Below, in pieces: positions 6,564 through 47,053 of a stretch of DNA of 47,053 nt. The notes under the pieces were generated by a model. The model saw only the letters and a program-made list of their open reading frames with translations, had not been told where the DNA came from and searched no databases. Source of the stretch: a virus. Where the stretch lies: IMG/VR virus record IMGVR_UViG_3300010430_006897, positions 1 to 47,053 of that record, one strand, 5' to 3'. The translations under genes and the position numbers were made by a program. Position 1 is the stretch's first letter. Each line of letters begins with the position of its first letter.

Positions 6564-7481
6564 ATGACCTCGATCGACCAACCGACAGCCGTCTCGCAGA
6601 CGCAGAGGCACGGCGTTCTCTTCGTCTTCGCCGCCGGCGTGCTATGGTCCACGGTCGGACTCGGCATCCGGATGATCGAGGACGCGCTGGTCTGGCAGAT
6701 CCTGCTCTACCGCTCGATCAGCCTGACACTGTTTCTGTATCTGGTGCTGCGCCTGCGGTCCGGCGAAAGCCCCTTCGCGCAGGTCCGTCGCACCGGGTTG
6801 CCGGCCGTCGTCGCGGCGCTGTCGCTGGTGGCGGCCTATTCCGGCGGGATCTACGCTATTCAGGCCACCTCCGTCGCGAACGCGATGCTGCTCTTCGCGA
6901 CCGCGCCCTTCATGGCAGCGGTCCTCGGCTGGATCGTGTTGCGCGAGCCGGTGCGCCGCGCCACATGGATCGCCATCGCCGTCGCCATCGGCGGCATCGC
7001 CATCATGGTCGCCGACAAGTCCGGCAGCGTGGCGCTCCTTGGCAGCCTTGCCGCCCTCGGCTCGGCCCTCGGCTTCGCCGTCTTCACGGTGGCGCTTCGC
7101 TGGGGCAAGTCAGGAGAGATGCTGCCCTCGGTCTTCCTCTCGGGGATCTTCGCCATCGTCATCACTTTCGGCATCTGTCTGTCGCTCGACCTGCCCGTGC
7201 TGCTCACCGCCCGGGACAGCGCCATCGCCATGAGCATGGGCGTCTTCCAGGTCGGCGCGGGCCTCATACTCTACACGCTCGGATCGCGCAGCCTGCCGGC
7301 CGCCGAACTCGCTCTCCTGTCGCTCGCCGAAGTGCTGCTCGGCCCCCTCTGGGTCTGGCTCTTCCTCGGCGAGACCGCCACCGTCAATACACTGGTCGGC
7401 GGCGCGGTCTTGCTCGCCGCCATCGTGTGGAATGCGCTGTCCGGCAAGCGCCGGAAGCCGCCACCGATCACGAGCCCCTGA
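6564..7481 (+). CDS. DMT-superfamily (EamA) transporter, cargo gene in tail operon
   Basis: A 305-aa integral membrane protein with about ten hydrophobic segments arranged as two EamA repeats. The first starts FVFAAGVLWSTVGLGIRMI and ends AVAIGGIAIMVADKSG. The second starts LLGSLAALGSALGFAVF and ends GGAVLLAAIVWNALSG. The signature E-P of the fourth helix region (WIVLREPVRRATW, WVWLFLGETATV) is present. EamA proteins export small metabolites such as amino acids; the substrate is not predictable. GGAG lies six bases before the ATG. It is the only plus-strand gene among the tail genes, faces against the operon, and lies between two copies of a hub-gene 3' end. It is a moron-type cargo rather than a virion gene. 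Confidence 0.9.
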   Translation: MTSIDQPTAVSQTQRHGVLFVFAAGVLWSTVGLGIRMIEDALVWQILLYRSISLTLFLYLVLRLRSGESPFAQVRRTGLPAVVAALSLVAAYSGGIYAIQATSVANAMLLFATAPFMAAVLGWIVLREPVRRATWIAIAVAIGGIAIMVADKSGSVALLGSLAALGSALGFAVFTVALRWGKSGEMLPSVFLSGIFAIVITFGICLSLDLPVLLTARDSAIAMSMGVFQVGAGLILYTLGSRSLPAAELALLSLAEVLLGPLWVWLFLGETATVNTLVGGAVLLAAIVWNALSGKRRKPPPITSP

Positions 7482-14461: not shown

Positions 14462-14464
14462 GTG

Positions 14465-14944
14465 ATGAGCGATCACGCAAAGATCCTTGCTTCTATCGCA
14501 GGTTCAACCGATGCCGATCAGCTGCGACGCTTTCGTGAGAACGCACAGAGGATGGGCGTCACGGCTGTCGCTGATGCGGCATTCAGACGATTGATCGAGG
14601 TCCTTCCCGATCAGGCGCCGGGAAGCATTGAACATGACTTCTGGATGACGATTCACGCCTTTGAGGAGGTTCTTCGTGACGAGCGCGGAAAGACGGTTCG
14701 CCTCTCCAGAACTCGACAGAAGATCGGCCGGGTCGGGGTCAAGCAGACCCTTATTGACTTTGCTACGAGCAAAGCTCCCACTGATGGCTTCAACATGCTG
14801 ATCGAACGAGGTCTCCCTGAACTGACCGGAGAAGCTCTCGTCCTAAAACACAGCGAGTCTTTTGATCCAGAAGTTCAATCAGCAGCTAGGCAGCGCTTGG
14901 AGGATGCGGGAGTAGACATCACCAAGCTCCAATCGATCTGGTAG
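14465..14944 (+). CDS. uncharacterised protein, second gene of the cargo pair
   Basis: A 159-aa soluble protein with no family I can name. It is mostly helical: DADQLRRFRENAQRMGVTAV, then IEHDFWMTIHAFEEVLRDER, then PTDGFNMLIERGLPELTGEA, which reads as a repeated helical scaffold. No nuclease, kinase or acetyltransferase motif is seen. ATG 14465 is eight bases after AGGAGG; a GTG at 14462 is also possible. It starts three bases after the ribbon-helix-helix stop, so the two form a dicistronic unit. It ends 15 bases before the stop of the convergent DUF6441 gene. A toxin, exclusion or regulatory role is possible and untested. Confidence 0.65.
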   Translation: MSDHAKILASIAGSTDADQLRRFRENAQRMGVTAVADAAFRRLIEVLPDQAPGSIEHDFWMTIHAFEEVLRDERGKTVRLSRTRQKIGRVGVKQTLIDFATSKAPTDGFNMLIERGLPELTGEALVLKHSESFDPEVQSAARQRLEDAGVDITKLQSIW

Positions 14945-20657: not shown

Positions 20658-22646
20658 TCAAAACCACCCTCCACGCCGTCCGAGCCAGTCGGACCTGCGT
20701 TTGCCTTGCGACGTCTGCGCTTGCCTGTTGATCTGCCCTGCCGGATCTGCAGAGGCATCAGCGACCCCAAGCTGATCCTCGAGGTCACGCCATTTTTCGT
20801 CCGTCCAACGATCCGCGCCCGCGATCCAGGCAGCGGCTCGCGCATAGACGCGGCAGTCCAGCGCCTCGTTGCGTTCACGCAGCTTCTGCCATTCCAGCCG
20901 GGCAAAGCCGCGCTTCGTACGCACGGTGACCAGCTGCTCGGCCACGAACTGCTTCAGCCATTCGTTTTCGACCCAATGCGGCAAATGCACCGTGCCGGGT
21001 GAGAACGCCGCACCATTGGCCATGTCCTCCTCGGTCGGTCGTTCCAGCCGCAGGAAGCGATAGGTCTCGGCCTTGAAGGTCGACACCGCCACGGTCCAGA
21101 GCCGGGCCCCGCGGCGCAGACGTTTGCCGCCCTCGGTCGCGTCCACATAAGTCGGCCCCGACACCGGGCTTGCCCGGTTGAACCCTTCCACGCCCTTTAC
21201 TGGCGATACCTGTGCGAACCCTTGAGCCCGCGACCAACCGTAAACCGCCGGGGCCTCGTAGCCGGTATCGATAGCAAGCCGCGCGATCTTCAGATGCGCG
21301 CCGCGCTCGTGCGGCCACGTTCGACCGAGCAGGTCGGTCAACTCACCCCAAGCCTCATGCCGGTCGGGCCCGCCCTCGATCACGATGTGATCGACGAGCC
21401 AGCTTTCCAGCCCTCGTCCCCAGGCCCAGACATCGACCTCGATCCGGTCCTTCTGCACGTCGGCCCCGGCCGTCAGGAACAACCCGCCCGCCGGGACAAT
21501 GCCCGGTTTCCAACGTTCTCGCTGGTCGTAGAGCCGCTGCCAGTCAGGGGCTTCGCCGGTCTCGACCCATGTCTCGCCGAGGATCGTGTTCCGGAACGCC
21601 TTGATCGCCTCGTCCGACCCCTGCGCCGCATCCCACGCCCGCACGATCCGCTCCCAGCTGAGCCAGCCGATGGGCGAATAGAGCGCCGAGAGGTGGTACC
21701 CAACCGTATTGGGATCAGACGCCGTGGCGGTCGCCCGCCATTCGCCCGCTTCCAGCATGGCCGTCTTGTGGTGTTCCGCGATGGGCGTGTCGCAGCCCTC
21801 GCAGTGATATTCCGCTGACTCTGGCTGTCCCTTCTCCCAGCGCAGACGGTCGAACTTCAGCCACTGCATCGCGCCGCAATGCGGACATGGCACGAAGAAC
21901 CGGCGTTGATCGCTGGCATCAAAGTCCCGTTCGATCCGGCTCATCCCCCGAATGGTCGGCGTCGAGACGAGGAAAACCTTGCGCCGATGCGCGAAGGTCA
22001 GCGACCGTGCCTCGGCCAGCGTGACCGGATCACCTTCCTCGTCGGCCGAGGCCGGATAGGCATCGACCTCGTCCAGAAAGATGTAGCGCGCCGGGGTGGA
22101 GCGCAGGCCGACCGCCGAGTTGGCCCCGGTCATGATCAGGATGCCGCCCGCGAACTCCTTCGACAACATCGTGTTACCCGCGTCGCGCGAGCGCGCCGGT
22201 TTGACCCGCTCCCGCAGTTCCGGGCTTTCATCGATCAGCGGATCGATCCGCTGCCTCGAATTTCGCTTCGCCAGTTCCACCGTCGGCTGGACCGCGAGCA
22301 TCGGGCCCGGCGCCTGGTGGATCGCGAACCCTATCCAGTTGTTGCCCGCCTCGGTCGCACCGACCTGAGCTGCCTTCATGAACACGATCCGCTGTGTCGG
22401 ATCACCGGGTGAGAGCCGATCCATGATCTCGCCCATGTAGGGCGTGCGCGCCGTGCGATACCGGCCCGGCTCGGCCGATGCTCGACCGGACAACATCCGG
22501 TGCCGATCCGCCCATTGCGAGACCGTCAGATCCGGGTCCGGTGTGAGGCCTTCGCTCCAGGCGCGCAGGATTTCAGCCGCACCCTCGAAATCCTCATCTG
22601 AGATCAGGTTTGACCTCGGCAAGATCGTCGAGCTGGGCACGGACAT
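20658..22646 (-). CDS. terminase large subunit, GpA family
   Basis: A 662-aa packaging motor. The N-terminal ATPase has the deviant Walker A of this family (KAAQVGATEA, residues 91-100) and Walker B with catalytic acid (YIFLDEVDAY). A four-Cys zinc ribbon follows (CPHCG, then CEGCD). The nuclease half shows acidic clusters GADVQKDRIEVDVWAWG and LAIDTGYEAPAVYG. It cuts concatemers and pumps DNA into the procapsid. GpA-type terminases usually produce cohesive ends, so a cos site should exist near the small terminase gene. The ATG at 22646 is well inside the small-subunit gene (53-base overlap). Confidence 0.95.
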   Translation of the reverse strand: MSVPSSTILPRSNLISDEDFEGAAEILRAWSEGLTPDPDLTVSQWADRHRMLSGRASAEPGRYRTARTPYMGEIMDRLSPGDPTQRIVFMKAAQVGATEAGNNWIGFAIHQAPGPMLAVQPTVELAKRNSRQRIDPLIDESPELRERVKPARSRDAGNTMLSKEFAGGILIMTGANSAVGLRSTPARYIFLDEVDAYPASADEEGDPVTLAEARSLTFAHRRKVFLVSTPTIRGMSRIERDFDASDQRRFFVPCPHCGAMQWLKFDRLRWEKGQPESAEYHCEGCDTPIAEHHKTAMLEAGEWRATATASDPNTVGYHLSALYSPIGWLSWERIVRAWDAAQGSDEAIKAFRNTILGETWVETGEAPDWQRLYDQRERWKPGIVPAGGLFLTAGADVQKDRIEVDVWAWGRGLESWLVDHIVIEGGPDRHEAWGELTDLLGRTWPHERGAHLKIARLAIDTGYEAPAVYGWSRAQGFAQVSPVKGVEGFNRASPVSGPTYVDATEGGKRLRRGARLWTVAVSTFKAETYRFLRLERPTEEDMANGAAFSPGTVHLPHWVENEWLKQFVAEQLVTVRTKRGFARLEWQKLRERNEALDCRVYARAAAWIAGADRWTDEKWRDLEDQLGVADASADPAGQINRQAQTSQGKRRSDWLGRRGGWF

Positions 22647-25090: not shown

Positions 25091-25864
25091 TCACAAAGAA
25101 ACGTTCCAGTATTCGAGCACTTTCTGAACTTCATCCCTAGGATAATGCGGGCCAGCAGATGTCAGATCCTTGCGAATGGCAGTCTTCCTGCGGTCCGCTG
25201 ACGTCTTGATCCGCGCCGAGAACTTGGCAGTCCCCATCGGAAGCGAATTTCGATCCTGTCTTGGCCAGCTGCTGGGATAGGCGTCCCAATCGGCCCATTC
25301 CTCGACTTGATCCGCGATGTCCGCAACATCGTCATGGTCGCAGGACCAGCCATAGAGATGGTGCGCACAAACACGAAGCATCATCTTCACTTCGGTCATT
25401 ACGTCGGTGAATGCCTTCAATGGCGTCGGCAGCAAGACCATGTTCGCTACGCATGAAAATAAGCGTCGATCCTGAACCACAGCGTTGCTGACCTGATAAG
25501 CGGCATCATCAACACCCCAGATATGGCAGCATGACCAATTCGGCCGTTCTGTTGCCCGCAGCCCCAAAGCCAGTGTCAGCGCCTTGTTCGCGTGCGTGTT
25601 GCCTTCGGATTTGTGAATGCTAACGCCCGTCTGACGATTGCGGTTCATCTGCGGCTCGGACCAATTTGCCTTGTAGAACAAGCCACGCCGCGCATGCTCC
25701 GGATACCAGACAGGCAGATATCCGAAAGTATTTGGATCGACCCATCTCGCAGTGCGCTCGATCAGTCCCATTACATCCCTCAGGCTCAGCTCTTGCCGCA
25801 GAGCTTCCAGGCCATCTGGAAGCAACTCCTGATCAGTCTTTTCCCCGTCTGGTTTCTTCAACAA
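25091..25864 (-). CDS. uncharacterised protein with HNH-like motif, possible nuclease
   Basis: A 257-aa protein. The central part shows NTHANKALTLALGL, then NWSCCHIWGVDD, then DRRLFSCVANMVLLPTPLKA. A His-rich turn followed some 20 residues later by N-hydrophobic-LLP is how the beta-beta-alpha metal core of some HNH restriction enzymes looks, but zinc or metal ligands cannot be assigned confidently. A second Cys/His cluster follows (RVCAHHLYGWSCDHDD). The nominal start is TTG 25864. The frame stays open upstream to 25913 with coding-like sequence, so the real start is uncertain. GC is lower than its neighbours. It lies near two methyltransferase genes on the same strand. Confidence 0.55.
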   Translation of the reverse strand: MLKKPDGEKTDQELLPDGLEALRQELSLRDVMGLIERTARWVDPNTFGYLPVWYPEHARRGLFYKANWSEPQMNRNRQTGVSIHKSEGNTHANKALTLALGLRATERPNWSCCHIWGVDDAAYQVSNAVVQDRRLFSCVANMVLLPTPLKAFTDVMTEVKMMLRVCAHHLYGWSCDHDDVADIADQVEEWADWDAYPSSWPRQDRNSLPMGTAKFSARIKTSADRRKTAIRKDLTSAGPHYPRDEVQKVLEYWNVSL

Positions 25865-26238: not shown

Positions 26239-27414
26239 TCAGCCATCGGCCAGTAATTCAGCTGCGAGAGTTCGCAGCGCATGCGCGGCAACCAGTGGGA
26301 CCACGCCGTTTCCACAGAGCCGAAGGCGGTCCACCCGATGGGCCAGCCCATCAGCGCCTCGACGAATGCTGGGTTCAGCGTCCGGCGCGGTTCGGAGGTA
26401 TCGCACCCAGCCATCGGCGTCACCAGGACCTGGCGGCCAAGCAGGCCGTTCACCGGCGTGTTCGCCAAGCTCGTCGCCCCATCCTTGTGATCGCGCGCTG
26501 TCGGCGTCATCCACATCTGGCTGGCGTTCGTCAGATCGGCCGATTTGCGATTGCCCGCGCTCGGCTTGTTGCCGTCGGTCGCCATGGGTGTCGGCCAATC
26601 CCGGGCCATCCCGTCCAGACCCTTCTCGTGTTTCCGGGCACCGCCCCGGCTGCGGAAGCTGTCGGTCTGCGGCGTCGGCCACATGGCGGCCGAGGTCGCC
26701 AGGTTCATTCCGTGCTTGCCCGCCGACTGCGATGGCGTCGGCTTCGTCTGCCGGTTCTCGTTGGCGCTCGCCCGTGGCGTCGGCCAGAGCTGCAGCATCT
26801 CCGTCCGGTTCCCGCCGCTCGAGCGGGTCCCGGAGCAGGCGCGCGGGGTCGGCCAGTTGGTGGCCTTCCCGATGGGCAAGGATGAAGAGCCGCTCGCGCT
26901 TGTGGGGCGCACCGACTTCCGCCGCCGTGAAGAGGCCTGCCGCAAGGCGGTAGCCCATGCCGACCAGTCCTCCGGCGACTTCGGGGAAGCCGAGGCGGAG
27001 ATGATGGGCGACATTCTCGAGGAAGACGAAGGGCGGCTCGACCTCGCCAATGATCCGCGCGACATGGGGCCAGAGGTGGCGCGGGTCGTCCGCGCCCCGG
27101 CGTTTGCCCGCGACAGAGAACGGCTGGCACGGATAGCCCGCAGTGACGATGTCCACCGCGCCGCGCCACGGGCGGCCGTCGAAGCTGGCAACATCGTCCC
27201 AGACAGGCGCTGGATCCAGGGCCGCCTCTTCCATCCGTGCCACGAGAATGGCCGCGGCGTAGGTTTCCCGTTCGATATGGCCCACAGTTCGATAGCCGGG
27301 CAAAGCGATGGTGAGCCCGAGGTCCAGCCCGCCTGCACCGGAACAGAGCGAGAGGCCGAACAGGTCTCCGGCTCCGAAAGCGCGTCCGGAGGGATGTAAA
27401 GCCAGGTCATGCAT
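26239..27414 (-). CDS. C5-cytosine DNA methyltransferase
   Basis: A 391-aa protein. C5-methyltransferase motifs are clear: motif I LSLCSGAGGLDLGL (21-34), motif IV TAGYPCQPFSVAGKR with nucleophile Cys96, motif VI FLENV (131-135), motif VIII GAPHKRERLFILA (168-180) and motif X LCGNGVVPLVAAHA near the end. It transfers a methyl group to C5 of cytosine, probably protecting phage DNA. The region about 185-340 is low-complexity (repeated ADA/ADG, R, E and Q). The same DNA in another frame encodes phage-methylase-like sequence, so the true course of the target-recognition region is uncertain. A compensated frame change should be considered. The next gene upstream ends four bases before its ATG. Confidence 0.82.
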   Translation of the reverse strand: MHDLALHPSGRAFGAGDLFGLSLCSGAGGLDLGLTIALPGYRTVGHIERETYAAAILVARMEEAALDPAPVWDDVASFDGRPWRGAVDIVTAGYPCQPFSVAGKRRGADDPRHLWPHVARIIGEVEPPFVFLENVAHHLRLGFPEVAGGLVGMGYRLAAGLFTAAEVGAPHKRERLFILAHREGHQLADPARLLRDPLERREPDGDAAALADATGERQREPADEADAIAVGGQARNEPGDLGRHVADAADRQLPQPGRCPETREGSGRDGPGLADTHGDRRQQAERGQSQIGRSDERQPDVDDADSARSQGWGDELGEHAGERPAWPPGPGDADGWVRYLRTAPDAEPSIRRGADGLAHRVDRLRLCGNGVVPLVAAHALRTLAAELLADG

Positions 27415-27418
27415 CGCC

Positions 27419-28672
27419 TCAGCGTGGGTTGGCCGTCAGATCGGCGAAACTCTCGCCGGTCCTGTCCAGCACGGCCTCTTGGCCGGTGAACTGTTGCCAG
27501 CGCTGCACGGCGACATCGACATAGGCCGGGTTCAATTCGATCCCGAAGCACACACGGCCCGTGGTCTCTGCCGCGATCAGCGTGGTGCCCGATCCCATGA
27601 AGGGCTCGTAGACCGCCTGGCCCGGGCTGGAATTGTTTAGGATCGGCCGACGCATGCATTCGACGGGTTTCTGGGTCCCGTGCACGGTTTCCGCGTCCTG
27701 ATCCTTGTTGGCGATCTGCCACAGCGTGGTCTGCTTGCGGTCGCCCGCCCAATGGCCCTTGCCGGTCTTTTTAACGGCGTAGAGGCAGGGTTCGTGCTGC
27801 CAATGATAGTCACCGCGGCTCAACACCAGGCGATCCTTGGCCCATATGATCTGGGACCGGATGTTGAATCCGGAGGCCTCGAGGCTTTCCGCGACTGTCG
27901 TCGCATGCAGCGCGCCATGCCAGACATAAGCGACGTCACCCGGGAATAGCGCCCAGGCCTCGCGCCAGTCAGCGCGGTCGTCATTCAGCACCTTGCCGGT
28001 CCGCTTGGTGGCGGCAGCGCCTGCCTTGTTGCGCCAGCCAGGATCATATTCGACGCCGTAAGGCGGGTCTGTCACCATCAGCAGCGGTGTCACATCGCCG
28101 AGCAGACGCTCGACATCGGTGGCCACCGTCGCGTCTCCGCACAGCAACCGATGCTTGCCAAGCACCCAGAGATCGCCGGGGCGGCTGATCGGGGTCTCGG
28201 TGGCCTCCGGAACGTCGTCCTCGCCTTCTCGGGACGCGGCCTCGGTGTCGACATCTCCGGCCAACAACTCCTCAAGTTCAGCATCCTCGAATCCGATGAG
28301 CGACAAGTCGTAGTCCGCAGCCAGCAGGTCGTTCAGCTCGGCTGACAGCAGTGCCTCATCCCAGGTTCCGAGTTCTGTCAGCTTGTTGTCCGCGATCCGA
28401 TAGGCCCGGCGTTGCGCCTCGGTCAGGTGTCCCAGCACAATCACTGGGGCCTCGGTCAGCCCCAGCTGCGTGGCGGCCAGCACACGGCCATGTCCCGCGA
28501 TCAACTCGCCATCGTCGGCGACCAGGCACGGAACCGTCCAGCCGAACTCCGCCATGCTGGCAGCGATCTTCGCGACCTGATCCGCGCCATGCGCCTTTGC
28601 GTTCTTCGCATAGGGCTGGAGCTTGGCCAGCGGCCACATCTCGATCGCATCCGGGGCAAAGCTCAGGGTCAT
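27419..28672 (-). CDS. ParB-domain DNA methyltransferase (DPPY type)
   Basis: A 417-aa protein. Residues about 8-130 form a ParB/sulfiredoxin-like domain (LAKLQPYAKNAKAHGADQV, then ELIAGHGRVLAATQLGL). Residues 165-400 form an amino-methyltransferase with DPPYG (202-206) and, later, FMGSGTTLIAAE. The order catalytic motif then SAM motif marks the beta class (N6-adenine or N4-cytosine). Phages often encode this fusion as an orphan methylase that protects their DNA or influences packaging. The specificity is unknown. No restriction partner is attached, unless the unknown gene at 25091 is one. Confidence 0.92.
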   Translation of the reverse strand: MTLSFAPDAIEMWPLAKLQPYAKNAKAHGADQVAKIAASMAEFGWTVPCLVADDGELIAGHGRVLAATQLGLTEAPVIVLGHLTEAQRRAYRIADNKLTELGTWDEALLSAELNDLLAADYDLSLIGFEDAELEELLAGDVDTEAASREGEDDVPEATETPISRPGDLWVLGKHRLLCGDATVATDVERLLGDVTPLLMVTDPPYGVEYDPGWRNKAGAAATKRTGKVLNDDRADWREAWALFPGDVAYVWHGALHATTVAESLEASGFNIRSQIIWAKDRLVLSRGDYHWQHEPCLYAVKKTGKGHWAGDRKQTTLWQIANKDQDAETVHGTQKPVECMRRPILNNSSPGQAVYEPFMGSGTTLIAAETTGRVCFGIELNPAYVDVAVQRWQQFTGQEAVLDRTGESFADLTANPR

Positions 28673-33403: not shown

Positions 33404-33570
33404 CGCACACCTCAGTGCGAAGTGCCTGCGACCAGAAAAAGCGAATGGTGCCGCGCCGGGCGCGATCAGAGATGTCGATCATGGGGGAAAGCTCCAGCTG
33501 CCACTGTCACATACCGGCAAGCCGCTCTGGCTGTCGGATGAGGCATACGGAACTTATCGTGAACACAACC

Positions 33571-33625
33571 TTGTGGTGTGGCGTCGGAATGCCTAAATTC
33601 CCGAGTCAAAGATAATTCTCGGGAA
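33571..33625 (+). promoter_or_regulatory. putative promoter and inverted repeat before the two-gene cassette
   Basis: A weak sigma70-like pair, TTGTGG (33571-33576) and TAAATT (33594-33599), is 17 bases apart. A perfect 8-bp inverted repeat, TTCCCGAG (33598-33605) and CTCGGGAA (33618-33625), begins on the -10 box and ends nine bases before the ATG at 33634. It could be an operator or an RNA hairpin controlling translation. The rest of the 230-base gap (33404-33633) shows nothing else certain. Confidence 0.55.
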
Positions 33626-33633
33626 CCCCCGCA

Positions 33634-34833
33634 ATGGCATCATTCAACCCGCGCGTATTTACAAACCCAGACGGTCTCAAGAAGATCTCCAATGTCCATT
33701 TGGTTGCATTGCTGGACAAATGGCGAAATTACTTTGCGGGGCGCAATGTCGAGATTCCTTCGGACGCACAGACGGCATTTCCGCATGACGATCTTGCTGC
33801 CGCGCTGATGACATATGACGAGGAAATGCCGCTCGCTCTAATGAACGGCCTTTACTACATTGATGAGGCCGCTTCGAACGAAACGCTTGACGACTTGCTC
33901 GATCGCGCACGCGAAGCGAGCATCTCCATAGAAAGCAATGGCGATCTGACCCCTGCCGACGTTGCAGTTCAGATCTGGCTTGCCAACCCCGACCTTCTGG
34001 AAGAGCGGCACATGAAGGCAATGGTCTTCAAAAAGACTGCTTTCCTTCAATTCCCCGGGCGGTCGGCAACGAGCCTGACACTTCCCGCCATTTCAGATCA
34101 GCAACTTGCCGCGATGGCAACGGCCATGGACCCATGGTTCGAGAACAAGCAACGTGGCCGAGGAACACGGATGTTTGCTTTTCCGCGCCCGGACGAAAAC
34201 AAGGTTTGGCTGTTGGTGCGGCACGGCATGCCGATGACCCGCGAAGGCAAACATGAAGACAACGGTGAGGCTGGCGTCGCCTTTTATCGGCCGCAAAAGC
34301 ACGACGTGCTGATATATGACGCAACAAACGACGTGTTGGCGATCAACGCCCAAAGCAAGGGTGAGCGGACCCTCTATCGTGAAACAATTGGCGCAACGAT
34401 TTTCGGCAAGAAGAGCTATTTCGGAGATGGTTCGGTTTTCACGCTTGCGCCGATCCGGCGGGAGGGGCCGAAAATTCAGGATTGCGATGGCATCGATGGG
34501 ATTAATCGGGTCAGGCTGACCGAGGTCGTGCGTGTGATCCCCGGCGATCCCGCCATCGTCGACATCAAGAAATCCACCGACCTGTTCAAGGCCTTCGGCG
34601 ACCGTTGGAGCACGTTGCTCGATCGCGGACGCTTCACCTCGGCAAAGTTCAGCTTCGTCTTCGAAGGTTCCAGCAAGCCCCGCAGTGTCACGATCCGCGA
34701 AGACTCAACAAAATATGACCGCGACTCTGATGCGATGCTGGTTGAGCAATGGCTTCGCACTGCGGGGTTCTATGATATCGAACGCGAAACCGATGTGATC
34801 GACGACAATGACGCGCCTGTGGCAGCTGCTTGA
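33634..34833 (+). CDS. uncharacterised protein, first gene of a two-gene cassette
   Basis: A 399-aa soluble protein that I cannot assign. Landmarks: MASFNPRVFTNPDGLKKISN and LVALLDKWRNYF at the start, DLTPADVAVQIWLANPDLLE (residues about 107-126), QRGRGTRMFAFPRPDENKVW and LLVRHGMPMTREGKHEDNG, then VAFYRPQKHDVLIYD and RTLYRETIGATIFG. The H-G-x-P-x-x-R-E-G-x-x-x-D-G segment is likely conserved but matches no catalytic motif that I know. It is on the plus strand against the replication operon and has lower GC. The second gene starts 26 bases before its stop. Possible roles are anti-phage defence, superinfection exclusion or regulation; none is shown. Confidence 0.62.
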   Translation: MASFNPRVFTNPDGLKKISNVHLVALLDKWRNYFAGRNVEIPSDAQTAFPHDDLAAALMTYDEEMPLALMNGLYYIDEAASNETLDDLLDRAREASISIESNGDLTPADVAVQIWLANPDLLEERHMKAMVFKKTAFLQFPGRSATSLTLPAISDQQLAAMATAMDPWFENKQRGRGTRMFAFPRPDENKVWLLVRHGMPMTREGKHEDNGEAGVAFYRPQKHDVLIYDATNDVLAINAQSKGERTLYRETIGATIFGKKSYFGDGSVFTLAPIRREGPKIQDCDGIDGINRVRLTEVVRVIPGDPAIVDIKKSTDLFKAFGDRWSTLLDRGRFTSAKFSFVFEGSSKPRSVTIREDSTKYDRDSDAMLVEQWLRTAGFYDIERETDVIDDNDAPVAAA

Positions 34834-35908
34834 CGAAATCAGCGGGGCAGCGATGTCCCGGCAAGAATGGATCGAAGAACTCCGCGGCGGCTGGGAGAAG
34901 TACGACCCCTACCTTCGTGAAACTGTCCGAAGTGCGAAGGATCTCGCGTGCCCCAAATCCGGCGGAGAGGGTTGCGCCCGCCAGATTATCAAGTTGGTAG
35001 ATGGATCGCTCAGGGTCGAGTGCGGGGATGCGCAGAGCCGGTGCAAGACAACCTCGTTGACCGACCAGGACATCATCATTCACGAGCTGGACCGCGACAG
35101 CCTCGTCAACCAGATCGCCCAGGCATTGAATCTGCGCGCGCAGCAACAGTCGGTGTCGCGGGAGGCTGTCATATCGGTCGGGCGCTACGAGATTGCTGCA
35201 GGCCGAGGGTTCCCTGTTTTCCTTGGGCTATCCTCAATCATTGCACCTCTCGATCTCGCCAATTTGAAGCCGGTCATGGATGTGACGGGGCCATGTGTGC
35301 TGCTGGTTCCAACCAGAACGACGCTCAGCCACCAACTCAAGGGCCATGTTGAAGTTGGAGGTGTTTCTGTAATGGCGCTCGAAGACGTCGTTGTTCTCGA
35401 CCAGCAGGGCCGGCTTTCCGCGGCGCTTCCTCCGGAGCAGTTGTTTTCGCCCCAGATTGACGCAATCGGTGGGCGCTTCATTGAATTGGAGTCTGGACCC
35501 AAGATCATGCTTCCGAGCGGAACCAAATGGGAGCAGGTGCGCATCGATTTTGCGGAACTGGATATCATCCGGCTCACCGTAGGTGGAACCAGTCACCGCC
35601 TTGGCCCCGACGATCTCGGGTTGAAGAACGCAAAGAACCAAAAACCGAAAGCGGCATGGGTCTTTCTGCGTTCATTGGCAGAGTTGCGCGGGCGTTTGAA
35701 CCGCAGGGGCGGCAATGAGTCAGACCGTCGGCGGATCGGCAAACAGAAAGAGGCAGCTTCGAAAGCGCTTCGTGCCCTTACAGGGCTCGCCGAAGATCCA
35801 ATTGTCGTGGACGGTGACGAATACGTCGCCTGCTATGTGACAAATGCTGACGATCTCCAGCAGGGCAAACAGGGCCAGCGCCAACGAAATTTCGTCGAGC
35901 CTCGCTGA
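34808..35908 (+). CDS. uncharacterised protein with Cys cluster, second gene of the cassette
   Basis: A 366-aa protein starting MTRLWQLLDEISGAAMSRQE. An internal ATG at 34853 is an alternative start; neither has a strong ribosome site. Residues about 45-80 contain four Cys as CPKSGGEGC and ECGDAQSRC (C-x7-C and C-x6-C), a probable zinc ribbon. The middle (GRGFPVFLGLSSIIAPLDLA, then CVLLVPTRTTLS) resembles an alpha/beta domain. The C-terminus is basic and could include a helix-turn-helix (ELRGRLNRRGGNESDRRRIG). Nucleic-acid sensing or binding is plausible. A strong terminator follows 25 bases after the stop, closing the cassette. Confidence 0.62.
   Translation: MTRLWQLLDEISGAAMSRQEWIEELRGGWEKYDPYLRETVRSAKDLACPKSGGEGCARQIIKLVDGSLRVECGDAQSRCKTTSLTDQDIIIHELDRDSLVNQIAQALNLRAQQQSVSREAVISVGRYEIAAGRGFPVFLGLSSIIAPLDLANLKPVMDVTGPCVLLVPTRTTLSHQLKGHVEVGGVSVMALEDVVVLDQQGRLSAALPPEQLFSPQIDAIGGRFIELESGPKIMLPSGTKWEQVRIDFAELDIIRLTVGGTSHRLGPDDLGLKNAKNQKPKAAWVFLRSLAELRGRLNRRGGNESDRRRIGKQKEAASKALRALTGLAEDPIVVDGDEYVACYVTNADDLQQGKQGQRQRNFVEPR
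35884..35895. repeat. palindrome with CGAAATTTCG core, copy 1
   Basis: ACGAAATTTCGT is a perfect 12-base palindrome within the last codons of the second cassette gene. A closely similar one lies 119 bases on at 36003-36014, and the flanks also match (CCA before, AGCC after). Confidence 0.6.
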
Positions 35909-35933: not shown

Positions 35934-35972
35934 AAAACCGCTGAAGACTCTGGGTCTTCGGCGGTTTTTCTT
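35934..35972 (+). terminator. strong Rho-independent terminator after the two-gene cassette
   Basis: A 15-bp stem with one G-U pair (AAAACCGCTGAAGAC at 35934-35948, loop TCTGG, GTCTTCGGCGGTTTT at 35954-35968) is followed by TCTTTG. An A-rich stretch precedes it, so it might also work on the other strand. It isolates the cassette from the early operon that starts at 36068. Confidence 0.9.
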
Positions 35973-36002
35973 TGTTCCAAAGCCACTCCCACCGCCGTCC
36001 CA

Positions 36003-36014
36003 GCGAAATTTCGC
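36003..36014. repeat. palindrome with CGAAATTTCG core, copy 2
   Basis: GCGAAATTTCGC is a perfect 12-base palindrome 54 bases before the sigma-like gene start. With copy 1 at 35884-35895 it brackets the terminator. It could be an operator for early-gene control or mark a recombination boundary. Confidence 0.6.
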
Positions 36015-36067
36015 CGGAGCCGGGTACTCGGGCCGCGTGCCCGTCCACCTGGACGAAGGCGAAAACC

Positions 36068-36673
36068 ATGGAGCAGCTTCAACAGCTTACCAACCCCACT
36101 AAACGTATTTCCCGCAATATCCGCTTTCGCGCAGCCCGTCTGGCGCGCTCTGGCGCGGTGCCGGGTCTCGACGCAGACGACATCGAGCAGGAATTGCGTC
36201 TCGACCTGATCAGGCGGGCCAGCCGCTTTGATCCAGCGAAATCTTCCTTCGACACATTCGCGGACCGGATCATCACGAACCGGATCGCGACGCTGGCAAG
36301 CAGCACGAAGGCCATGCGCGCCGAGCGTGCGATGCAATCGATCCATGCGCCCGCCGGTGACGATGATGGAGGGTTGGCCCTTTCCGACATTTTGCCGGAA
36401 GCCGCGGCGTTGGACCCTGTCGACGAGTTTTCGCTGAAACACGGCCCGGGCTTGAAAGGGGATGTGGGCAAGCTGCTCTCCGCACTGTGCCCGACAACCC
36501 GGCAGGTCGCAATCGCGGTCAGCCACCTCAGCATCTCCGAAACGGCGCGCGCACTCGGGCTGCACCGAAGCACCGTTTACGAGCGTCTCGGCGTGATCCG
36601 CAAAACGGCCAGGGAACTGGGACTCGACGGGTATTTCGAAGCCGTCCCGACAGTTGGGGCCGCCCGCCGGTAA
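36068..36673 (+). CDS. sigma-70-like / ECF-type factor, first gene of the early operon
   Basis: A 201-aa protein. Region 2-like sequence appears near residues 20-85 (LARSGAVPGLDADDIEQELR, then FDPAKSSFDTFADRIITNRI). Region 4-like HTH lies at about 155-190 (LSISETARALGLHRSTVYER). ATG 36068 follows GAAGG. Such short sigma-like proteins head early or middle operons in many prophages. It may direct host RNA polymerase to phage promoters or act as a simple HTH regulator; the promoter specificity is unknown. It is transcribed in the same direction as the recombination genes. Confidence 0.75.
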   Translation: MEQLQQLTNPTKRISRNIRFRAARLARSGAVPGLDADDIEQELRLDLIRRASRFDPAKSSFDTFADRIITNRIATLASSTKAMRAERAMQSIHAPAGDDDGGLALSDILPEAAALDPVDEFSLKHGPGLKGDVGKLLSALCPTTRQVAIAVSHLSISETARALGLHRSTVYERLGVIRKTARELGLDGYFEAVPTVGAARR

Positions 36674-36826: not shown

Positions 36827-37117
36827 ATGTTCACCAACCCTCTGAAAAAACTGCGCCAGTCCACCTGGCTGAGCGCGATACCCGTCACGGTCGCGGTGCC
36901 CGCCATCGGCGACCGCCCGGCGCGCACGGTCGCCATTGAGCGTGCCACGATCGACGATATCGCCTTCGCGCTGCTGCCGTTGAACCGGGAGCGTTCTGTG
37001 CTCACCCAGACGATCGTTGCGCTTGAAGAGATCACGTCGATGGCCCGCAAACAGGGCGCGGCTGGTACGGACATTGCCGTCTCGGCTGCCGCCCGCGAAT
37101 TGGAGGCACGCAAATGA
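36827..37117 (+). CDS. conserved hypothetical protein of the early operon
   Basis: A 96-aa protein: MFTNPLKKLRQSTWLSAIPV, then TVAVPAIGDRPARTVAIERA and LPLNRERSVLTQTIVALEEI. The ATG at 36827 is preferred to the one at 36821 because AAGGAG is seven bases before it. Basic N-terminus, helical C-terminus. Function unknown. It overlaps the Sak4-like gene by four bases, so translation is probably coupled. The gap 36674-36826 upstream holds no gene. Confidence 0.68.
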   Translation: MFTNPLKKLRQSTWLSAIPVTVAVPAIGDRPARTVAIERATIDDIAFALLPLNRERSVLTQTIVALEEITSMARKQGAAGTDIAVSAAARELEARK

Positions 37118-38010
37118 GCGCGCCTTTCCAACCCGCCCCGTTGAAGATCATCACCGCCGACGAACGCCTGAAAGAAGCACGCGGCATCAAGGGCGTCCTC
37201 ACCGGCATTTCCGGGATCGGCAAAACCAGCCAGCTTTGGACGCTGGATCCGGAACGGACACTGTTTCTGAATCTCGAGGCAGGCGAACTGGCGGTACAGG
37301 GCTGGCCCGGAGACGAGGTCCGGATCCGGGACTGGGAACGGGCCCGCGATCTCGCCTGTTGGATTGGCGGTCCCAATCCCGCGATGCGCGAGGATCAGCC
37401 CTATAGCCAGGGCGATTATGACCGCGTACGCGCGGCCTTCGGTGATCCCGCCGTACTGGACAAGTACGACACGGTGTTCGTCGACAGCATCTCGGTCGCC
37501 TCCCGCATCTGCATGCAGTGGTGCAAAGGCCAGCCTCAGGCGCAGTCGGATCGTAGTGGCAAGCTCGATTTGCGTGGCGCCTACGGCCTGCTCGGTCAGG
37601 AAATGATCGGCTGGCTCACACACCTGCAGCACACGCCGCGCAAGAACATCTGGCTGGTCGGCCTCCTCGACCGAAAGATCGACGACTTCGGCAAACCGTT
37701 TTTCGCGATGCAAATCGAAGGCTCGAAGACGGGCCTCGAACTACCCGGCATTGTCGACGAGGTCATTACGCTCGCCGAGATCCGCCCCCAGGAGGGCGAG
37801 CCTTACCGGGCGTTCGTCTGCACCACCATCAACGATTTCGGCTTTCCCGCGAAAGACCGCAGTGGCCGGCTCTCAATGATCGAGCAGGCGCATCTCGGAC
37901 GCCTCATGGCGAAGATCCGTGATGGCGCGGGGACGACCGCCAATTCCGGCCTCGACTTCGATCTGCCGCAAGCGGCGGCCCAGCCGAATTCCCCGACGAA
38001 AGGAGCATAA
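37114..38010 (+). CDS. Sak4-like RecA-fold ATPase
   Basis: A 298-aa protein with Walker A GISGIGKTS (31-39), Walker B-like YDTVFVDSIS (about 120-129) and a RecA-like core that continues to QIEGSKTGLELPGIVDEVIT. The size and sequence resemble phage Sak4/AAA_24 ATPases, which anneal or pair single strands and usually work with an SSB encoded next to them. Here an SSB-like gene follows after four bases. Together with the helicase at 38653 they form a phage recombination set. Confidence 0.85.
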   Translation: MSAPFQPAPLKIITADERLKEARGIKGVLTGISGIGKTSQLWTLDPERTLFLNLEAGELAVQGWPGDEVRIRDWERARDLACWIGGPNPAMREDQPYSQGDYDRVRAAFGDPAVLDKYDTVFVDSISVASRICMQWCKGQPQAQSDRSGKLDLRGAYGLLGQEMIGWLTHLQHTPRKNIWLVGLLDRKIDDFGKPFFAMQIEGSKTGLELPGIVDEVITLAEIRPQEGEPYRAFVCTTINDFGFPAKDRSGRLSMIEQAHLGRLMAKIRDGAGTTANSGLDFDLPQAAAQPNSPTKGA

Positions 38011-42749: not shown

Positions 42750-42803
42750 CATCAAACGATTCTGGTGGACGATCTCGCTCCACCTGCTCAACGAGGACCT
42801 GAT

Positions 42804-43661
42804 ATGCGCTGGGGTGTCGAAAAACGATTGGAGTTCATTGAATTCCGCCTCTTTTGGGAGGGCGGCATCAATCGTGCCGATATCGTAGACCAGTTCGGCG
42901 TATCCGTGCCCCAAGCCTCCAAGGACCTGACACTCTACGAGGATAAGGCGCCGGGAAATCTGATCTACGACAAGAGCGCCAAGCGTTACAAAGCGGCAGA
43001 CGATTTCAAGCCAGTATTCATGCAGCCCAATGCATCCGCGTACCTCGCTCATCTGCGCGAGACTAACGGAGGAGCGTCTGGTGTGACCGAAGCCTGGCTT
43101 GCATCGGCGCCGGAGCATGATGCCCTGCCTATTCCGAACCGGCGCGTGGAGCCCGAAGTCCTTCGCGATGTACTCAAAACCGTAAGAGAAGGGCATTCCA
43201 TCGAGGTCTTCTACCAGTCCATGAGCGCCAAGAAGCCCACCCCTGAGTGGAGGCGGATTTCTCCCCACGCCCTCGGCAATGACGGACTGCGGTGGCATGT
43301 TCGTGCCTTCTGTCACATCGACCACAAGTTCAAAGACTTCATCCTCTCGCGATGCGTGAAGACCCGAAAGCATGCGCTATCTGGCGCGTCTGCGAATGAC
43401 GACAAGCTTTGGCATGATCGCTTCGCGGTAGCGCTCGCACCGAATCCAGCCCTGAGCGAGAGCCAGCGGTCGATAATCGCGCAAGACTATGAAATGACGA
43501 ACGGGCGCTCCGAAGTTATGGTACGGAAGGCGCTGCTCTACTACTTCTTGAAGCGTCTCCGTCTGGATGTCGCAGACAAGCTGGACAACCCCCACGAGGT
43601 CCCGGTCGTGGTCGCCAACCGAGCTGCCTTTGACGCCGCTCTTGCGGAGGCGATGGCATGA
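42804..43661 (+). CDS. WYL-domain transcriptional regulator (BrxR/CapW-like)
   Basis: A 285-aa protein in three parts. N-terminal winged helix (RLEFIEFRLFWEGGINRADI, then VDQFGVSVPQASKDLTLYED); central WYL-like domain (EGHSIEVFYQSMSAKKPTPE, WRRISPHALGNDGLRWHVRA, FCHIDHKFKDFILSRCVKT); C-terminal extension (VRKALLYYFLKRLRLDVADK). These are hallmarks of BrxR/CapW repressors that control anti-phage operons and may sense nucleic acid or nucleotide through the WYL domain. ATG 42804 follows GAGGA; the GTG at 42765 is worse. It overlaps the hsdR gene by ATGA, so they are co-transcribed. Confidence 0.87.
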   Translation: MRWGVEKRLEFIEFRLFWEGGINRADIVDQFGVSVPQASKDLTLYEDKAPGNLIYDKSAKRYKAADDFKPVFMQPNASAYLAHLRETNGGASGVTEAWLASAPEHDALPIPNRRVEPEVLRDVLKTVREGHSIEVFYQSMSAKKPTPEWRRISPHALGNDGLRWHVRAFCHIDHKFKDFILSRCVKTRKHALSGASANDDKLWHDRFAVALAPNPALSESQRSIIAQDYEMTNGRSEVMVRKALLYYFLKRLRLDVADKLDNPHEVPVVVANRAAFDAALAEAMA

Positions 43662-46600
43662 AATCGCTCAACTTCGAATTACTACGTCAGGGCTGGCCTG
43701 AACTTGCTGGTCTTGGCGCGTTTGCAGAGTCGTATGCTCACGCTGACCCAGCAAGCGCACTCGTCAAGCTTCGCCTTTTCGCGGAGAACCTGACAAAGGA
43801 TATCTATCGCGAGCTCCGGCTGCCAAAGCCGGACCTGCCCACGTTTGTTGATCTCTTGAAGAACGACGCCTTTATCGCGATCACACCAAAGGTTGTACTC
43901 GACAAACTTCATGCGTTGCGGATGCACGGCAATAAAGCCGCGCATGGCGAGCCCGTAAGGAGCCAACACGCGCTATGGCTGCTCAAAGAGGCACACGATC
44001 TGGCCCGCTGGATGTGTGTCAGATACGGGCAAGCGAAAGCAGACCAGCTTCCGGCCTTCCAGCAACCGGCTATTCCGGGCCAGGTAGAGGAACGGGAACG
44101 GCGACAAGTCCTCGAAAAACTCGCGGCTCAGGAAGCGCAGATGGATGCGTTGCTTTCGGAGCTCGAAGAAGAGCGCTCGAAAGCAACTGCGGCCCAGAAG
44201 GAAGCGGCTGAGCTCAAACAGCTTGCAAGCTCGGCACAGGCTGCGGCCGATGAGCTTCAATTTAGTGAGGCAGAAACCCGGACACGGCTCATCGACAGCA
44301 TGCTGGCGAGTGTCGGCTGGGATATCGCAGAGGGTGTCAAAAGCACGGCTCAGGTCGGCAAGGAAGTCGAGGTTGACGGCCAACCCACGACCACAGGCAC
44401 TGGTTACGCCGACTACGTGCTTTGGGATGACAATGGGAACCCGCTTGCCGTTATCGAGGCGAAAAAGACCTCTGTCGATGCGGAACTCGGTCGTCACCAG
44501 GCGAAGCTTTATGCAGATAGCCTCAACAAGAGGTTTGGTCACCGCCCGGTCATCTTCTACACAAATGGCTTCGACATCTGGATTTGGGACGATGCCCAGG
44601 ACTTCCCACCACGGAAGCTCTACGGCTTCTACTCGAAAGACAGCCTTCAGCATCTGGCCAACTATCAACGCCATCAAAAGAAGCCCCTCGATACAGTCGA
44701 GATCAGCGAACAGATCGTTGATCGCCTGTATCAGCTCGAAGCGATCAAGCGGGTTTCGGAGCGGTTCTCCCAGAAGCACCGTCGGGCACTCGTGGTGCAA
44801 GCTACGGGTACAGGCAAAACGCGCGTTGCGATCGCTCTAACTGACCTTCTGATAAGGGCCGGTTGGGTCAAGCGGGTCTTGTTCCTCTGTGACAGGAAGG
44901 AACTTCGAAAGCAGGCTAAGAACGCCTTCAACGATTTCCTTTCCGAGCCCACCCGGATCATCACTTCGCGCGTCAAGACGAATGCCAATGAGCGCGTCTT
45001 CCTCGCGACCTATCCCGCGATGCAAAAGGTCTTTCAGTCGTTCGACCCCGGCTTCTTCGACCTCATCATCGCTGATGAGTCCCATCGGAGCATTTACAAC
45101 GTCTACGGAGACATCTTTCACTATTTCGATTGTCATCAAGTCGGGCTGACCGCGACCCCGGTCGACTTCGTCACTCGCAACACCTTCCGTCTCTTTGGAT
45201 GCGAGGGACAGCTTCCGACGTCGAATTATGATCTCGAACAGGCGGTACAGGCAGGCTACCTGACCCCCTTCGAGGTCTATGAGCACACGACCCAGTTTCT
45301 CCGCGACGGCATCACCCTCGACGGCCTTTCTCCTCAGCAGATTCAGGAACTGGAAGACCAGGGAGAGGACCCGGCACAGTATGACTTCTCTTCGGAACAG
45401 ATCGACAAGGTCATCTACAATAAGGATACAAACCGCACGATCCTGAGAAACCTTATGGAAAACGGGATCAAGGATGCAACGGGGCAGATTCTTGGAAAGA
45501 CCATCGTATTCGCGCGCAACCACCAACATGCGATGCTGATGCGCCAGATCTTCGACGAAATGTATCCGCAGTACGCCGGCAAATTTTGCCAGGTGATCGA
45601 CAACTATGACCCCCGAGCCGAGCAACTGATCGACGACTTCAAGGGTGAAGGCACCAACAACGATCTGACCATCGCGATCTCGGTCGACATGCTCGACACC
45701 GGGATCGACATACCCGAAATCGTGAACCTTGTTTTCGCAAGGCCAGTCAAATCGCCCGTAAAGTTCTGGCAAATGATCGGCCGCGGTACGCGTCTCTGTC
45801 CAGACCTCTTCGGACCAGGCCAAAACAAGAGCGTGTTTCGCATCTTCGACCATTGGGGCAACTTTGCCCGCTTCGAGATGGGCTATCGACCCGCCGAACC
45901 CACGCAGAGCAAGCCGCTTGCCCAGCTGGTCTTCGAGGAGCGGCTGAACGTTGCCGATGTCGCCCTTCAGAAGAGCGAGATCGCGGCCTTCGACACCGCC
46001 ATCGGACTTGTCGAGCAAGACATAAACGCCTTGCCGGAGGAGTCGATCGCGGTTCGAGAGAAATGGAAGGAAAAGCGCGCGCTATCACGCCCCGAGGTCT
46101 TGAAGGCGTTCGCCCCGGCGACCGTCGCCAGACTACGCCAAGAAATCGCACCGCTGATGCAGTGGCGGAACATCCGTGGCTTCGGCGACGCTCTTTCGCT
46201 CGATCTTCTCATTGCTCGCATGCAGATCGCGGTGCTGCGTGGCTCAGGTGAGATTGCTGACCTGAAAATCGAGCTCCTTGACCGACTTTCATCCCTCCAG
46301 ATGCACCTGAACCCGGTCCGCGAGAAGGCGGAAATCATCAAGCGCGTGAAGTCGGATGCGTTCTGGAAGGATGTAACTGTCGCTGACCTTGAGGACGCGC
46401 GTCTCCAGCTTCGCGAGATTATGCATCACCGGGCGAAGGGTGGCTCGCAGAGCGTTCCTCCAAAAGTGGTCGATATCACCGAGGATGCCAGTCAGATGCA
46501 TCTGGCACGTCGGTCTGCGACCCTGAAATCCGTCGACATGAAGGCCTATCAACAGATCGTCGAGGCGGAGCTTAAGAAGCACTTCGAGACCAATCCAGTC

Positions 46601-47053
46601 TTGAAGAAGGTCCGTGCCGGTGAAGCCGTGTCCGACCGAGAAATAGACTCGCTCGTGTCTCTCATACTCACCCAGCATCCGGATGTGCGCCGAGAGCACC
46701 TTGAGGAGTTCTTTAGCGAGACCGCCGGTCCGCTATATCTCGCCATCCGCATGATCGTTGGGATGGACTCCGAGGCGGTGCGGGAAAAGTTCACAACCTT
46801 TGTCCAAAAGCATCCAAAGCTGAGCGCAAAGCAGACACGCTTTCTCGCGCTCCTGCAAAACCACATCGCGCGCTACGGCACGATTGAGGTTGAACGGCTC
46901 TATGACGACCCCTTCACCGTGGTCGATGCCGACGGACCGGACGGCGTGTTCGAGGACGAAGCCGACATTGCCGATCTCATCAACATCGTGCGCTCCTTCG
47001 GCACCGAGGTCGAAGAGCGCGAAGACGAAAACCCGAACGAGAGGAAACAATAA
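43658..47053 (+). CDS. hsdR: type I restriction enzyme R subunit (HsdR) with N-terminal DUF4145 region
   Basis: An 1131-aa protein. Residues 1-115 resemble DUF4145 (LHALRMHGNKAAHGEPV). A coiled coil spans about 145-200. The nuclease has Asp252 (TGYADYVLWDD) and VIEAKKTS (Glu267, Lys269). The SF2 motor has VQATGTGKTRVA (motif I), DESHRSIY (motif II), GLTATPVD (motif III) and QMIGRGTRLCPD (motif VI). A helical C-terminal part follows. It translocates and cuts unmodified DNA when joined with HsdM and HsdS. Those genes are not in the window but would be expected just downstream. The gene is complete: the stop ends at the last base. Confidence 0.95.
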   Translation: MKSLNFELLRQGWPELAGLGAFAESYAHADPASALVKLRLFAENLTKDIYRELRLPKPDLPTFVDLLKNDAFIAITPKVVLDKLHALRMHGNKAAHGEPVRSQHALWLLKEAHDLARWMCVRYGQAKADQLPAFQQPAIPGQVEERERRQVLEKLAAQEAQMDALLSELEEERSKATAAQKEAAELKQLASSAQAAADELQFSEAETRTRLIDSMLASVGWDIAEGVKSTAQVGKEVEVDGQPTTTGTGYADYVLWDDNGNPLAVIEAKKTSVDAELGRHQAKLYADSLNKRFGHRPVIFYTNGFDIWIWDDAQDFPPRKLYGFYSKDSLQHLANYQRHQKKPLDTVEISEQIVDRLYQLEAIKRVSERFSQKHRRALVVQATGTGKTRVAIALTDLLIRAGWVKRVLFLCDRKELRKQAKNAFNDFLSEPTRIITSRVKTNANERVFLATYPAMQKVFQSFDPGFFDLIIADESHRSIYNVYGDIFHYFDCHQVGLTATPVDFVTRNTFRLFGCEGQLPTSNYDLEQAVQAGYLTPFEVYEHTTQFLRDGITLDGLSPQQIQELEDQGEDPAQYDFSSEQIDKVIYNKDTNRTILRNLMENGIKDATGQILGKTIVFARNHQHAMLMRQIFDEMYPQYAGKFCQVIDNYDPRAEQLIDDFKGEGTNNDLTIAISVDMLDTGIDIPEIVNLVFARPVKSPVKFWQMIGRGTRLCPDLFGPGQNKSVFRIFDHWGNFARFEMGYRPAEPTQSKPLAQLVFEERLNVADVALQKSEIAAFDTAIGLVEQDINALPEESIAVREKWKEKRALSRPEVLKAFAPATVARLRQEIAPLMQWRNIRGFGDALSLDLLIARMQIAVLRGSGEIADLKIELLDRLSSLQMHLNPVREKAEIIKRVKSDAFWKDVTVADLEDARLQLREIMHHRAKGGSQSVPPKVVDITEDASQMHLARRSATLKSVDMKAYQQIVEAELKKHFETNPVLKKVRAGEAVSDREIDSLVSLILTQHPDVRREHLEEFFSETAGPLYLAIRMIVGMDSEAVREKFTTFVQKHPKLSAKQTRFLALLQNHIARYGTIEVERLYDDPFTVVDADGPDGVFEDEADIADLINIVRSFGTEVEEREDENPNERKQ

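Follow-up and report, generated by a model that had tools for sequence, protein, structure and literature searches.

The two overlapping genes P1 and P2 constitute a fixed core part of a phage lineage and not inserted cargo, and they occur in it as an allelic cassette that is exchanged as a unit. The window analyzed here is a whole IMG/VR virus record of 47,053 bp, in which P1 (33634-34833, + strand, 399 aa) and P2 (34808-35908, + strand, 366 aa) overlap by 26 bp. The reading we favor, as plausible though still short of probable, is that the pair would serve as an SOS-linked switch module, similar to an immunity region and built on a DNA clamp of the RdgC/Rex fold, in a temperate alphaproteobacterial phage.

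Much of what the sequence-only reading had described still stands. The two overlapping ORFs of 399 and 366 aa are in place, their GC is lower (0.55 and 0.58 for P1 and P2 against 0.61-0.65 in the neighbors), and they belong to no known family, with zero matches at E<=1 in Pfam, PADLOC, PHROGs, and NCBIfam. Searches with single proteins and early alignments turned up no homologue in plasmids, in phage records, or in GTDB species genomes; GTDB was queried with short exact patterns, which makes that result weak evidence of absence. To the left of the pair, DUF6511, a PDDEXK nuclease, and a D5-type primase-helicase are transcribed leftward, and to its right the sigma-70-like gene S (36068-36673, + strand; Sigma70_r2, E 1e-8), located 3' of the pair, is followed rightward by AAA_24, a DEAD helicase, and then DUF2924, a serine recombinase, a WYL regulator, and HsdR. 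The pair had been placed opposite to the replication operon, which is correct for the leftward D5 primase/PDDEXK operon, from which it diverges, but not for the sigma/AAA_24/DEAD genes, with which it is co-directional.

Relatives with the same gene order came from scanning with P2 first and with a P1 alignment afterwards, the P2 alignment being too divergent for a scan of the collection. For an unbiased test of empty sites, the neighboring PDDEXK gene was used as query and contigs having 900 bp or more on the relevant side were considered; P1 was at the same position in all 58 of these related virus contigs, and no empty site lacking P1 was seen among them. P2 came next on the same strand in 144/144 P1 loci fetched with at least 400 bp downstream, and S was present in 130/132 with at least 2 kb downstream, both counts including more than once those contigs that were fetched by several scans. 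In the most distant relatives (L187, L193, and L196), a divergent DUF2924/recombinase adjoins the pair, and L196 has its S elsewhere; therefore, P1-P2 is the stable unit. The earlier proposal of an insertion thus has no empty site to lean on, and that of accessory defense cargo in a prophage fares no better, given the core status of the pair, the lack of any match to it at E<=1 among the PADLOC models of known anti-phage defense systems, and a context in the relatives of phage early genes or a phage recombinase instead of the suggested defense islands. What does hold, as the pair travels together, is the notion of a self-contained transcription unit of two uncatalogued genes, that is, an undescribed module.

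Across 51 distinct loci, the median pairwise identity was 84% for PDDEXK, 52% for P1, 35% for P2, and 51% for S, and the rank correlation of distances (rho) reached 0.80 for P1-P2 and 0.65 for PDDEXK-S against 0.24 for P1-S. S as a member of the co-varying module was consequently rejected, since it tracks the backbone and is not part of the cassette. The window and L032 share 95% identity in PDDEXK and 93% in S versus 46% in P1 and 34% in P2. At the left breakpoint, an identity of about 90% is reduced to about 50% over a stretch of some 60-120 bp ahead of P1, and it recovers at the right breakpoint, which coincides with the terminator or the end of P2; such sharp breakpoints were seen in four close pairs (window/L032, L034/L035, L057/L063, and L061/L084), together with the mirror pattern of a common cassette in different backbones (L034/L057 and L040/L097). 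Because P1-P2 diverge this sharply between phages whose adjoining genes are about 95% identical, we conclude that the two are swapped together as an allelic cassette. At a threshold of 70% identity there are 10 types of P1, three of them within one backbone clade, and the changes of P1 type required amount to 9 on the P2 tree, which is the minimum, compared with 19 on the PDDEXK tree and 18 on the S tree, where part of the excess may reflect poor resolution among near-identical backbones. Such sharp and matched two-gene exchange at one site offers a natural experiment on the compatibility between related prophages.

Within types, dN/dS was 0.095 for P1, 0.19 for P2, and 0.10 for PDDEXK; P1 is under purifying selection (dN/dS about 0.1), and these low values imply that both genes of the pair are in use. 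Strong within-type purifying selection, together with allelic diversity and an early position, would also suit a pair engaged in counter-defense or host take-over through binding to a variable host complex for DNA repair or defense, with allele swaps tracking hosts; however, no known inhibitor was matched and no pointer to a specific host target emerged, and we consider such a role very improbable.

Copies of CCA(A/G)CGAAATTTCG(T/C)CG occur both in the 3' end of P2 (35881-35897) and in the leader of S (36000-36016); they flank the terminator close to the right boundary of the cassette and are possibly a recombination joint. As a genome-wide operator, CGAAATTTCG was rejected, with just two exact copies (P2 end and S leader) and a one-mismatch count not above chance.

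The AlphaFold2 model of P1, a new family, was built from 28 sequences (pLDDT 83.3, pTM 0.71) and found RdgC (2owl) as its best Foldseek match in the PDB (E 3e-6, probability 1.0). All eleven PDB matches at E<=0.001 were either RdgC (three chains) or, within kinetochore complexes, CENP-N or the equivalent yeast protein, and among the fifteen BFVD viral models at the same threshold those named for a function were RdgC, recombination-associated protein, or exonuclease. The 2owl match gave a TM of just 0.35-0.43 over the whole chain, and with TM-scores of 0.3-0.4 and an rmsd near 8 A it is the domains that match and not the entire chain. By sequence, P1 had no match to the RdgC profile PF04381 at E<=10, and hhalign of the P1 family against 12 RdgCs returned a probability of 1.8%. 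On account of this domain-only match and the lack of a sequence-profile relation, we term P1 an RdgC-fold protein and not RdgC, the link being predicted by fold and absent by sequence. The sequence-only reading had named clear homology to a phage replication family already known as a refutation, and such homology is present by fold (RdgC) but not by sequence. Lambda RexA has been described as sharing a single structural class with RdgC and with Iml3/Chl4 of the kinetochore, DNA binding being common to the members studied (PMC11077077), and P1 would add a sequence-unrelated branch to this RdgC/RexA/CENP-N fold class.

This spontaneously raises the thought of an RdgC-like accessory of replication or recombination, in which P1 would encircle or coat DNA and limit RecA or host nucleases in lytic replication, P2 would be its loader or targeting partner, and the two would form an SOS-induced early lytic pair. 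Apart from the predicted fold class, this explanation draws on the D5-type primase/helicase, PDDEXK nuclease, AAA_24, and DEAD helicase nearby, on the SOS box upstream of the pair, on classical RdgC genes being common in phages (445 records, e.g., adjoining SSB in LKA5), and on the ability of RdgC to lower RecA activity and LexA cleavage (reviewed in PMC11077077). Nevertheless, the adjoining replication genes are not swapped with the cassette, a conserved RecA does not account for 10 allelic types, the pair is separated from the rightward operon by its own terminator, and P1 bears no sequence relation to RdgC; we place this explanation on the unlikely side, while still taking it seriously. Compared with RdgC (PF04381) and its phage homologues, P1 shares the location in a phage replication/recombination region and the best fold match in both PDB and viral models, but its N terminus is longer by about 135 residues, which are mostly helical, and it is always paired with P2. 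In the RdgC-histone operons of Bacillus and Halobacteria (PMC11390915), a multidomain winged-helix protein likewise comes after an RdgC-like one, although no histone gene lies beside P1-P2 and the RdgC-histone partner has a transmembrane domain. A replication initiator with an origin inside the cassette was rejected as well, as no iterons were found.

In P2, the cysteines of the four-Cys ribbon proposed earlier, which lies N-terminally, were confirmed and are conserved in 37 sequences (C48, C72, and C79 invariant, C56 at least 90% conserved). In the AF2 model (pLDDT 83.8, pTM 0.67), the N-terminal part is rich in beta structure, the middle is alpha/beta, and the C-terminal end forms a beta-helix-helix-hairpin that appears winged-helix-like. 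The tail, described before as basic and possibly HTH, is indeed basic (net charge +8 in the C-terminal 97 residues), whereas the winged helix is suggested by the shape of the model, Foldseek against the PDB giving P2 no fold match at E<=0.001 and the winged helix no statistical support. No membrane segment is present in P2, with a maximal 19-residue hydropathy of 1.54 and a soluble alpha/beta model.

These features of P2 weigh on an exclusion or defense role of the Rex type, in which P1 would sense DNA intermediates of a superinfecting phage, P2 would be the effector, and alleles would differ in the phages excluded. Lambda RexA-RexB is also a two-gene unit between divergent early promoters in an immunity region, RexA has the RdgC fold (PMC11077077), RexAB-type prophage defense has been shown in P. 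putida (PMC11077077, PMC12894663), and an arms race would fit the diversity of the exchanged alleles. However, P2 with its ribbon and winged-helix-like end looks DNA-binding and soluble, unlike the membrane protein RexB, the pair is never absent, unlike cargo, PADLOC yields no match, and no CI repressor gene adjoins the pair; furthermore, RexA is not among the best fold matches listed for P1 in the PDB, and P1 has no sequence match to it. The exclusion claim of the sequence-only reading is thereby helped indirectly, through a fold that P1 shares with RexA, and hurt by a P2 that does not resemble RexB, and we regard it as doubtful.

Upstream of P1, the block TCACATACCGG-N13-CTGTCGG fits a leftward promoter and is its sole complete match within the window. 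We infer here the leftward early promoter PL (33508-33537, - strand; -35 CCGACA at 33537-33532, -10 TATGTG at 33513-33508), which alignment and sequences show to be kept in most relatives, including the distant L187, L193, and L196. Next to it lies GAAC-N7-GAAC (33550-33564), an alphaproteobacterial LexA box by consensus and hence a putative LexA/SOS site, alphaproteobacterial LexA sites being GTTCN7GTTC and GAACN7GAAC (PMC3091678; for the Caulobacter consensus, see PMC12700426). One such motif in a 47-kb window is unremarkable and its positional conservation carries the weight: it occurs upstream in 33/38 non-redundant relatives versus 0.3 expected from shuffles, with 0-2 for other spacings, and is missing in the remaining five, L032 and L004 among them. 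The candidate box sits between two putative divergent early promoters, upstream of both -35 elements and not over them.

For P1-P2 itself, a promoter can be suggested only tentatively at 33571-33599 (+ strand; -35 TTGTGG at 33571-33576, 17 bp, -10 TAAATT at 33594-33599), where CTTG is conserved in most relatives and a consensus promoter scan gave no sigma-70 match. Of the weak promoter of its own with an 8-bp inverted repeat over the -10, as previously described, the repeat does exist (33598-33625), but it starts at the end of the putative promoter and extends downstream, and it is specific to this cassette type. With no second copy, and none in other upstream regions or cassette types, it was rejected as an operator with further copies, and no palindromic operator common within or between cassette types was found. 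The predicted terminator after P2 proved to be a strong one (35934-35968, + strand; 16-bp stem and T tail, folding z-score -6.4), conserved as a hairpin in relatives.

Ahead of S there is also a structured leader (36004-36070), a conserved three-part stem in which TTTCGCC, the outer strand, is base-paired to GGCGAAA next to the start codon. In this stem, 92% of cells are paired versus at most 43% when slid, and nine cells, from few lineages, show changes on both sides; Rfam gave no match to the leader.

In lambda, imm regions are exchanged as blocks. Like a lambdoid immunity region, P1-P2 lies between divergent early operons and is exchanged as a block. We favor the SOS-linked switch or immunity module because of this lambda-like place and imm-like exchange, the RexA/RdgC-fold protein, the LexA site, and the lack of a recognizable CI-type repressor, with no HTH_3 over the cut-off and no S24 in the window or in the relatives tested, several of these records being fragments. 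In such a module, P2 would read DNA via its ribbon and winged helix, probably inside the cassette at its own promoter region, P1 would clamp or bridge DNA with P2, and together they would set the firing of the flanking early promoters. LexA at the candidate box would couple the module to DNA damage, and RecA activation would release the P1-P2 unit and shift the prophage towards the lytic state; alternatively, P1 may restrain RecA as RdgC does, so that the lytic shift is damped. On this view, compatibility groups would be set by the matched P1-P2 alleles, much as they are by the imm regions of lambdoid phages.

Some of the evidence speaks against the switch. PL and the S leader are unchanged when the cassette type changes, whereas the operators of a classic repressor at the flanking promoters should change with the allele, and therefore any operator must sit inside the cassette. 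The position of the LexA box off the -35 elements, its absence in five relatives, and the lack of a shared palindromic operator are further points against it. As for precedents, RexA of the RdgC-fold class biases the lambda switch (PMC11077077), and phage GIL01 uses LexA directly, with an accessory protein (PMC4551915), and both GIL01 and the SOS-linked antirepressors (PMC3121763) bring host LexA/SOS into prophage regulation, as the putative LexA site would for P1-P2, although hosts and proteins differ.

Going one step further, and rather unlikely in our estimate, is a new prophage immunity that dispenses with a CI-type repressor, in which host LexA, an allelic RdgC-fold clamp, and a ribbon/winged-helix partner would control divergent early promoters and swappable P1-P2 alleles would define immunity groups across the WO-related lineage. 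The conserved LexA box would explain how prophages related to Wolbachia phage WO sense DNA damage without a recognizable CI repressor. With the switch module, genes so far free of function in a widespread prophage lineage gain a testable role.

The terminase and AAA_24 genes indicate an alphaproteobacterial phage with Rhodobacter phages, Wolbachia phage WO, and AcaML1 as relatives, which points to an alphaproteobacterial host for the window. TerL (20658-22646), AAA_24 (37114-38010), and the sigma gene tie the lineage to WO, with identities of about 50% for the terminase and about 53% for AAA_24. P1 and P2 were absent from the WO and AcaML1 stretches checked; in that of WO, sigma was present without the pair.

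Additionally, the region 42765-47053 (+ strand), adjoining the serine recombinase, holds the WYL-domain regulator and then a type I restriction HsdR running off the record end; it is likely the true defense cargo, and HsdM- and HsdS-like ORFs were read by eye at a comparable place in L187. An EamA/DMT-type transporter gene (6564-7481, + strand, E 7e-23), encoded opposite to the tail genes, is likely a moron. Two more ORFs of low GC (0.55) lack a Pfam match (14462-14944, + strand, and 25091-25864, - strand), and two adjoining ORFs at 26239-28672 (- strand) were read by eye as a C5 cytosine methyltransferase and a ParB-N/DNA methyltransferase.
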